From positions 62,001 to 126,000 of the forward strand of contig JAOASC010000015.1 of assembly GCA_025210295.1 (NCBI GenBank): 64,000 nucleotides of DNA. The letters run 5' to 3'. Shown here piece by piece: positions 2,807-5,507 of the stretch (positions are counted from its first letter, which is position 1; every line of letters starts with the position of its first letter). The position numbers were made by a program, and so were the translations under genes. A model generated the notes under the pieces. That model saw only the letters and a list, made by a program, of their open reading frames with translations. It searched no databases and was not told where the DNA came from. This stretch comes from Flavobacteriales bacterium. GTDB taxonomy: Bacteria > Bacteroidota > Bacteroidia > Flavobacteriales_D > Parvicellaceae.

Positions 2807-3034
2807 ATGAAATTTTTCAAATACATATCTCTACTAATTTTATTACTATCATTAGTATCCATTGTGTATGGACAACCGGCAGGTGGAGGACCACCTGGAG
2901 GTCCTGCAGGTGGTGGCCCTCCTTGTTGGCCTCCTCCATGTATACCTGTTGATGGGGGAATTAGTTTTTTGCTTGCAATTGGTGCTGCTTATGGTGCTAA
3001 AAAAGCTTATCAAAACATAAAAGAAGAATCATAA
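2807..3034 (+). CDS. PID-CTERM-like exosortase substrate, small surface peptide
   Basis: This 75-residue protein has an N-terminal signal peptide (hydrophobic 8-21, likely cut near VYG-Q). A Gly/Pro-rich stretch with two cysteines (C40, C45) follows. The C-terminus has the tripartite form of a protein-sorting tail: PVDGG at 47-51, a hydrophobic segment about 52-63, then a basic KK at 65-66. In flavobacteria the tail PIDGG-hydrophobic-KK is the PID-CTERM sorting signal, as I recall the family. The XrtF gene lies 58 bases downstream, supporting an enzyme-substrate link. If both ends are removed, only some 25 residues remain. A hairpin terminator follows the gene, so it may be transcribed alone and strongly. 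The function of the mature peptide is unknown. Confidence 0.75.
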   Translation: MKFFKYISLLILLLSLVSIVYGQPAGGGPPGGPAGGGPPCWPPPCIPVDGGISFLLAIGAAYGAKKAYQNIKEES

Positions 3035-3039
3035 AATAC

Positions 3040-3068
3040 AAAAAGTTGAACTTTGGTTCAACTTTTTT
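3040..3068 (+). terminator. Intrinsic terminator after PID-CTERM gene
   Basis: An 11-bp perfect stem (AAAAAGTTGAA at 3040-3050 with TTCAACTTTTT at 3057-3067) with a six-base loop ends in a run of six T. It separates the small peptide gene from xrtF. Confidence 0.75.
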
Positions 3069-3092
3069 AGTTTAAATAAAAATTAAACCTTA

Positions 3093-3611
3093 ATGCTCAA
3101 AAATCCATTTTTGAAATTTATTATCACATTTGCAGTATTAGTTATTTTGTGGTTTAGTTTTTATGAAAACATATATAGTTTATTTGAAGGCGATATTCAA
3201 AGGATTATCTCTATTGAATTAGCTCATCAATCCACTTTTTTCATCCAACTGTTAGGTTATTCACCAATCATTGATACCTCAACAGATTATGTTATCACCT
3301 CAGTTGAGGGAGATTATATCAACCATGGAGTTTGGATTGGAGAACCTTGTAATGGGCTTAAAGTCTTTGGTTTATTTGCGATATTCATCCTAGCATTTCA
3401 AGGGAAGTGGATTCATAAATTATGGTACATTCCTCTAGGAATATTTATTTTACACCTCGCAAATGCTATTAGAATAGCTGTTTTAACTATTATTTCTGCT
3501 GAAAACCCTACTTTACTGGATTTTAACCACAATATTACTTTCCAAGTACTCGTCTATTCAATCGTATTTGGACTATGGTATTTTTGGGTCAATAAATTTT
3601 CTAAAAAATAG
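3093..3611 (+). CDS. xrtF: Exosortase family protein XrtF
   Basis: This integral membrane protein of 172 residues has about five hydrophobic segments. The exosortase/archaeosortase catalytic residues are recognisable: Cys86 in EPCNGLK, Arg127 in NAIRIA and His146 in DFNHN. The family is thought to be a membrane transpeptidase that cuts C-terminal sorting tails and anchors the product at the cell surface. The short length is usual for the flavobacterial XrtF subgroup. A probable substrate lies upstream and the usual accessory membrane protein follows within a few bases. A Wzc-like gene is divergent nearby, in keeping with coupling to exopolysaccharide. The family call is strong; the substrate link is inferred from position and tail sequence. 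Confidence 0.88.
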   Translation: MLKNPFLKFIITFAVLVILWFSFYENIYSLFEGDIQRIISIELAHQSTFFIQLLGYSPIIDTSTDYVITSVEGDYINHGVWIGEPCNGLKVFGLFAIFILAFQGKWIHKLWYIPLGIFILHLANAIRIAVLTIISAENPTLLDFNHNITFQVLVYSIVFGLWYFWVNKFSKK

Positions 3612-3615
3612 AACG

Positions 3616-4119
3616 TTGAATCGTTTTTTAAAATATGGAATTGTCGGTTTGGGAATATGTTTTATTTTCTATCTAGATTTTGTACGCGACTATATTTTTA
3701 AAAACATTGGTTTTCAAATTTACTACCTACAGCATCTTTCACCTGATGGAACAGCATCAATAGATAGTTACACAGACTCCTTTATTGAAAGTTTTATTAA
3801 AGACTACTCTATTAAAGAGTTGAATAATTTAAAGTGGCTATTTACCGCTATTTTTAGTTTCTTATTTGGGGCACTGGGCGCCATCATCAATGGTATTTTT
3901 TACCAAACAAGTAAAGTTTCTTATTATTTCTTTATACTCTACACTATTCTTTTCTTAAGCGCTTTTATTATTTATACTAGCTCTTATTTAAGCGCCAACT
4001 ATACATTTCAAAACAAAGCATATTTAATTGCTATGGAAATTGCTCATTTTTTGCAATCATCACTTCCTACGCTATTCTTTTTAGTTAGCTTTAAGCTATT
4101 CTATTTAGATAAAAAATAG
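3616..4119 (+). CDS. Exosortase F system-associated membrane protein
   Basis: This membrane protein of about 167 residues has roughly four hydrophobic segments and follows xrtF directly. Its position and N-terminal form ([12 protein letters not shown] followed by FVRDYIFK) match the small protein that regularly accompanies XrtF in flavobacteria. Its biochemical role is unknown. I favour a TTG start at 3616, four bases after the xrtF stop, because the family begins at this NRFLKY stretch. An ATG at 3568 would add 16 residues and overlap xrtF by 44 bases. It is likely cotranscribed with xrtF, and perhaps assists or stabilises the sortase (inference). Confidence 0.72.
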
Positions 4120-4229
4120 CTTTATTTTTCCTCATCTATTCAACACTTTTGATTATTTTTGTTACGGTAGTTGTTGGAACAAAACAAGTACCCTTAATAC
4201 TAAAACACACAATAATAAATACGCTACGT

Positions 4230-5507
4230 ATGACTCAAGACAATCAAGTATTTGACTTAATCGAACACGAAAGAGTTCGTCAAACAGAAGGAATAGAATT
4301 AATAGCATCTGAAAATTATGTGAGTGATAATGTAATGAAAGCTGCAGGTTCAATTCTAACCAATAAATATGCTGAAGGGTTACCTAACAAAAGGTATTAT
4401 GGAGGTTGCGAAGTTGTTGACCAAATAGAATTGTTAGCTATTGAAAGGCTAAAGCAACTATTTGGAGCTGAATGGGTAAATGTTCAACCACATTCAGGGT
4501 CACAAGCTAATGCCGCAGTTTACCTTGCCTGTTTAAAACCAGGAGACAAAGTCTTAGGTTTTGACTTATCTCATGGGGGACATCTTACACATGGTTCACC
4601 TGTGAATTTTTCTGGAAAACTTTACACTCCTGTTTTCTATGGAGTGGAAAAGGAAACTGGATTAATAGACTATGATAAAGTAGAAGCTAAAGCAATTGAA
4701 GAGCAGCCTAAAATGATTATTTGTGGGGCCTCAGCTTATTCTAGAGATTGGGACTATAAAAGATTAAGAGCAATTGCCGACAAAGTAGGTGCGATATTAT
4801 TCGGAGATATTTCACATCCTGCAGGATTAATTGCTGCTAAATTGCTTAACAACCCTTTACCGTATTGTCATGTTGTTACTACTACTACTCACAAAACACT
4901 AAGAGGGCCTCGTGGTGGTGTAATAATGGTAGGTAAAGACATGGAAAACCCTTGGGGAATTACTACTGCTAAAGGAACTGTAAGAAAACTATCATCACTA
5001 TTAGACTCTGCTGTTTTTCCTGGAATTCAAGGAGGGCCATTGGAACATGTTATAGCAGCTAAAGCTGTAGCATTTGGAGAGGCATTATCTCCTGAATTTA
5101 TTACTTATGGTAAACAAGTGATTACTAATGCAAAAGTAATGGCTGATGAATTAGTAAAAAGAGGTTATCAAGTAATTTCAGGAGGGACAGAAAACCATTC
5201 AATGTTGATCGATTTACGTTCGAAAAACATTACAGGAAAAGAAGCTGAAAATGCACTTGTCAAAGCCCATATCACAGTAAATAAGAACATGGTTCCATTT
5301 GACACTCAATCTCCTTTTGTGACTTCTGGTATTCGTTTAGGAACACCTGCTGTAACCTCAAGAGGAATGAAAGAAACTGAAATGATTCAAATTGTTGATT
5401 TTGTAGATCGAGTAATTATGAACCATGAAAATGAACAAGAATTAGAAAACATTAAAGAAGAAGTTAAAAATTTCATGACTGAGAGACCTCTTTTTACATG
5501 GAAGTAA
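4230..5507 (+). CDS. glyA: Serine hydroxymethyltransferase
   Basis: This PLP enzyme converts serine and tetrahydrofolate to glycine and 5,10-methylene-tetrahydrofolate in the cytoplasm. The 425-residue length and sequence are typical. Visible motifs include [12 protein letters not shown] near the N-terminus, [15 protein letters not shown] and the PLP-lysine motif [14 protein letters not shown] with Lys222. The reading frame is open upstream to a TTG at 4149, but homologues begin at [15 protein letters not shown], so the ATG at 4230 is chosen. The fumarylacetoacetase gene follows after 22 bases, so the two form a likely operon. Confidence 0.97.

Follow-up and report, generated by a model that had tools for sequence, protein, structure and literature searches.

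The closest described counterpart of the locus analysed here is a set of three families that have already been named in NCBIfam, namely exosortase X, the PID-CTERM tail and the XrtX-associated protein (NF046081, NF046080 and NF046082), which stand side by side in the same fashion; the open literature yielded no paper on either XrtX or PID-CTERM. A second relative is XrtF with the exosortase F-associated protein (TIGR04128 and TIGR04127; Fjoh_1448/1449), a small exosortase that is homologous and shares the invariant residues. In F. johnsoniae, sand colonization, biofilm and zorbs require xrtF and its neighbour, deletion of either xrtF or the partner abolishing zorbs and strongly reducing biofilm (PMC10936215), while a paper from 2025 states that the targets of XrtF are not yet known (PMC12188702). 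A further comparison may be made with XrtA/EpsH and PEP-CTERM, which share with our locus a tripartite tail, a Cys/Arg/His exosortase and an EPS-type gene nearby; however, PEP-CTERM proteins usually number several to many per genome, with a median of eight (PMC1569441), as against one PID protein in the genome studied here, and EpsH, unlike the enzyme considered below, is built of eight or more helices and is encoded within a large EPS locus (PMC1569441). The pairs MrtJ/JDVT-CTERM and myxosortase/MYXO-CTERM offer an earlier example of two genes that pair a single sorting enzyme with a single target, again with a Cys close to the processing site (PMC11980579), but their enzymes come from an unrelated family (CPBP) and their cargo is a full protein. 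For Haloferax ArtA (Cys173/Arg214/Arg253), C-terminal cleavage has been reported and the substrates are lipid-anchored (PMC9263693); no demonstration of cleavage or transfer by any XrtX or XrtF was found in the literature.

The window, i.e., the whole stretch of 64,000 nucleotides from a Flavobacteriales genome that was analysed, carries the three families as three open reading frames in a row (Table 1), in the positions and on the strand given by an earlier, preliminary description of this DNA. We consider it probable that they constitute an exosortase X system dedicated to one minimal substrate. It departs from the NCBIfam system in having a single mini-protein, whose mature end carries CWPPPC, and in the divergent gene for a Wzc kinase. 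The frame of the membrane partner is listed from 3568 without an ATG, its likely start being a TTG at about 3616. The hairpin between the mini-protein and exosortase genes (−12.8 kcal/mol, z −5.5) is the same in two congeners, and its scan score falls on the minus strand only, with a T run also lying 3′ of the hairpin on the plus strand; it may allow more substrate than enzyme to be made. The Wzc kinase scores 167 bits with TIGR01007 against a cut-off of 108, and its C-terminal tail is a (GY)n run, YGKYGYGYGYGYGYGYGYGYEEK. On the 3′ side of the locus lies glyA, which is also found downstream in five of the comparable loci, a recurrence suggesting that the neighbourhood is old and fixed.

Table 1. 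Features of the locus and of comparable loci; coordinates refer to the window unless a locus label precedes them, and lengths of six-frame open frames are upper bounds, not protein lengths
Feature	Position	Strand	Basis
Wzc-type tyrosine autokinase / chain-length protein, 776 aa	327..2657	−	TIGR01007; divergent neighbour conserved
PID-CTERM mini-protein, 75 aa	2807..3034	+	NF046080 match, family alignment, selection
Terminator-like hairpin between mini-protein and exosortase genes	3040..3067	+	12-pair stem
XrtX-clade exosortase, 172 aa, Cys86/Arg127/His146	3093..3611	+	NF046081, tree, invariant residues
XrtX-associated membrane protein, divergent member	3616..4119	+	NF046082 and conserved position
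glyA	4149-5507		
Large secreted protein, 790-1065 aa, between Wzc kinase and mini-protein gene	L279:4524-7721; L285:5440-8607; L288:4464-7559; L291:2201-4570	that of the mini-protein	
Protein of ~970 aa with PID-like C-terminal tail, a rare case of a long protein bearing the signal	L181:1615-4536		

The mini-protein matches the PID_CTERM model NF046080 with 40.2 bits (cut-off 26) over residues 47-70 of its 75. From a reading of the sequence and the family alignment, it runs from a signal peptide through a mature part to PVDGG, a hydrophobic helix and KK. The signal peptide is predicted to be cut between ...SIVYG and QPAGG..., with Q at +1, leaving a Gly/Pro-rich mature part of 24 residues that ends in CWPPPCI before PVDGG. 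Family members have 15-35 residues between the predicted cut and the PID motif; XrtF species have 13-41, and XrtX species from another class about 11 (10-41 overall). As the cuts were placed by a simple rule, any single mature length may be off by several residues. The mature part is 29-35% proline. Most XrtX members have Gln after the predicted cut, a residue which in this position means pyroglutamate as a rule in Bacteroidetes (PMC5837995). A Cys pair, typically CWPPPC, lies just before P(I/V)DGG in the order of the window and in many other families; the members sampled from other classes lack it. Purifying selection acts on the gene, with pN at 0.14-0.36 against pS at 0.53-0.70 in pairwise comparisons. 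Weak PID matches of the form QCAMCRAAL...NDGIVYLMVIPYILVAG in four loci were set aside as an unrelated conserved protein.

The enzyme is placed in the exosortase/archaeosortase superfamily by TIGR04178 (52 bits, cut-off 23) and by Pfam PF09721 (29 bits, cut-off 25.7), and the Cys86/Arg127/His146 set that the preliminary description had picked out is borne out as invariant in 20 aligned exosortases sampled throughout the class and phylum. The same description took the enzyme for XrtF and its neighbour for the XrtF accessory protein, and neither assignment stood. A score of 84 bits with the XrtF model TIGR04128, close to the cut-off of 90, speaks for it; however, the same enzyme reaches 147.6 bits with the exosortase X model NF046081 (cut-off 170), full-length exosortases in its family scoring 113-153 bits. 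In a maximum-likelihood tree of 89 exosortases that took in the window enzyme together with 20 relatives from its family, their sisters are members of the order that score above the XrtX cut-off (99/98), whereas the XrtF sequences form a fully supported clade of their own (100/98) with the window enzyme outside it. The partner, likewise, has NF046082 and not TIGR04127 as its best model, with 21 bits against a cut-off of 75 over nearly the full model. Taken together, these comparisons leave the XrtF assignment very improbable, and on sequence grounds we class the enzyme as XrtX-type, although both it and the partner, as against the tail, score below the curated cut-offs. An AlphaFold model of the enzyme from four close sequences reached a pLDDT of 63.5, too low for interpretation, and no solved structure of a relative was found by sequence. 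A search of contigs with the enzyme returned three close relatives only, and the comparisons presented here were made on sampled whole genomes.

The co-occurrence of tail and enzyme was followed in the source genome, the phylum and the family. In the source genome (48 contigs, 95% complete), the sole PID-CTERM gene adjoins the sole exosortase match, which supports the earlier proposal of a dedicated pair of an enzyme and a PID-CTERM-tailed substrate. Across 392 Bacteroidota genomes searched with the PID and exosortase models, an exosortase-family match was present in all 62 PID-positive genomes (E<=1e-4), and at the same threshold PID was present in 0/271 exosortase-free genomes (Fisher p ~1.6e-38); related genomes are not independent and such p-values therefore overstate the strength of the association, but the pattern nonetheless holds over many families. 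On relaxing the threshold to E<=0.01, two exosortase-free genomes with a PID match appear, which is about the chance level. Thus, the wide occurrence of PID-CTERM proteins without any exosortase, which the preliminary description had named as speaking against the pairing, was not what the phylum displayed. Within the family of the window, PID was detected by the model in 20 of the 26 exosortase-positive genomes and in none of the 12 exosortase-negative ones, with three further carriers recognized by eye; this comparison is weaker than that across the phylum because some of the exosortase-negative genomes are incomplete. The family has one mini-protein copy per genome, and other XrtX genomes have up to nine tail paralogues scattered over the genome.

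The order of the genes is equally constant. All 20 sampled family loci present the divergent Wzc kinase, the mini-protein, the exosortase and the membrane partner in this order, the partner homologue being directly downstream of the exosortase in each and the kinase reading as two pieces in one. In 296 genomes of the class, 61 tail/enzyme pairs lie less than 2 kb apart; the tail gene is upstream on the same strand in 57 of these, and the gap is, as in the window, at most 250 bp in 57. The divergent Wzc gene, to which the preliminary description had drawn attention, is no local accident, since it recurs in numerous further families of the class as well as in the 20 family loci. The kinase is 2.8-3.8 kb away in eight loci of other families and is absent near the pair in some families, represented by six loci, and thus is not obligatory. 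A divergent Wzc gene accompanies 41 of the 47 mini-protein loci with the Cys pair and none of the six without it, in counts that were tallied by hand over relatives that are not independent. In each of the four loci inspected among the eight with a distant kinase, the gene for a large secreted protein lies between the kinase and the mini-protein (Table 1); a T9SS type A tail scores above its cut-off in three of these proteins, the match in that of L291 being below it.

A parallel can be drawn with XrtF genomes, in which mini-proteins bearing diverged PI(D/N) tails also turned up. Their weak PID matches fall in secreted open reading frames of 60-100 aa. A profile of 16 such tails from XrtF genomes was tested on genomes outside the building set. 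It matches each of the 17 XrtF genomes held out from a single genus, probably Flavobacterium, with E<=4e-4 throughout and E<=2.5e-8 in 15, and 0/14 exosortase-free genomes of the class at E<0.05. Independently of the profile, the mini-protein gene lies tail-to-tail with ribE-pdxA in 21 XrtF genomes, and at this site it is absent in six of six exosortase-free relatives, one of which is congeneric with two carriers. XrtF differs from the enzyme of the window in that its candidate substrate gene, beside ribE, is usually unlinked to xrtF. The preliminary description had suggested looking for a PID-CTERM protein within a few genes of XrtF; in the genomes examined here the co-occurrence is seen with diverged PI(D/N) tails, and close linkage is unusual. 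The NCBIfam library detects 11 of 30 mini-proteins of XrtF genomes, via PID_CTERM at E<=0.01, most of these tails being below the cut-off of that model. In another family, XrtF genomes gave weak tail matches (E 0.002-0.05) or none and are not counted as support, though four have the right architecture. Two genomes match the profile without an exosortase match; both are fragmented and congeneric with an exosortase carrier. In a further genome, tandem small peptides with MKKSI...NINGG-type leaders, bacteriocin-like in appearance, occupy the site where relatives have the mini-protein, ~300-1250 bp downstream of ribE. Judged by these matches, the same arrangement appears to hold for XrtF with diverged PI(D/N)-CTERM mini-proteins, and since the targets of XrtF have been described as unknown, these mini-proteins become testable candidates.

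In the mechanism that we propose, the 75-aa precursor would be exported by Sec and cut by signal peptidase I before Gln23, which would probably be converted to pyroglutamate under the Bacteroidetes Q-rule, while the PVDGG-helix-KK tail would hold the precursor in the inner membrane until XrtX acts. The enzyme, using Cys86/Arg127/His146 and helped by its membrane partner, would then cleave at or near PVDGG and transfer the ~24-residue Gly/Pro peptide QPAGGGPPGGPAGGGPPCWPPPCI to an acceptor in the membrane or at the surface. The product would be a blocked, Pro-rich peptide on the cell envelope, with the conserved Cys pair at its anchored end, and would be made in step with a surface layer under the control of Wzc. 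A wider proposal, for and against which we see the balance as even, is that the small exosortases of Bacteroidota (XrtX and XrtF) form one system, whose cargo would be a ~10-40-residue Pro-rich, N-terminally blocked peptide, often with a Cys pair, covalently anchored on the envelope by its C-terminus; the mini-proteins adjacent to ribE would then be the missing targets of XrtF that account for the defects of xrtF mutants in adhesion and biofilm.

With a mature peptide so short, the mini-protein could also be a membrane peptide with a role of its own rather than cargo, perhaps regulating the exosortase or the Wzc kinase or forming a small membrane subunit of one of them, its tail serving to bind the enzyme. 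The fixed place of the gene beside the exosortase and divergent to Wzc would suit such a role, as would the single copy per genome in the family of the window. Against this stand the scattered paralogues of the tail in other XrtX genomes and its presence, in at least one case, at the C-terminus of a ~970-aa protein, both of which are expected of a portable sorting tag, as well as the usual separation of the mini-protein gene from the enzyme in XrtF genomes. We thus find a subunit or regulator improbable. The preliminary description had gone further in the direction of cargo, suggesting that the peptide is linked to, or lies within, an exopolysaccharide whose assembly would be under Wzc; this would make a special case of the dedicated XrtX system that we favour. 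The conservation of the divergent Wzc gene beside the mini-proteins with a Cys pair agrees with this, and PEP-CTERM/EpsH genes are themselves located in EPS loci (PMC1569441). However, the source genome has a second Wzc kinase on a different contig, number 4, where a glycosyltransferase and a Wza-type exporter (Poly_export) stand next to it, indicating that the XrtX locus is not itself an EPS operon; the extra gene in four loci encodes a large secreted protein and not an EPS enzyme; and the substrates of archaeosortases are anchored to lipid (PMC9263693). Attachment of the peptide to EPS is accordingly possible, but as a specific account of this locus we think it rather unlikely.

No description of the mini-cargo with a Cys pair, of the synteny with Wzc or of the PI(D/N) mini-proteins as candidate XrtF targets was found in the open literature, though subscription papers or the notes to NCBIfam models may hold one. 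The rule by which tail and enzyme are paired names a few candidate substrates per genome for XrtF, an enzyme that F. johnsoniae needs for colonization and biofilm. A sorting system with almost no cargo beyond the tag raises the matter of what role a surface-anchored, Pro-rich mini-peptide would have, and the frequent presence of Wzc as a neighbour ties that question to the control of the surface polysaccharide.
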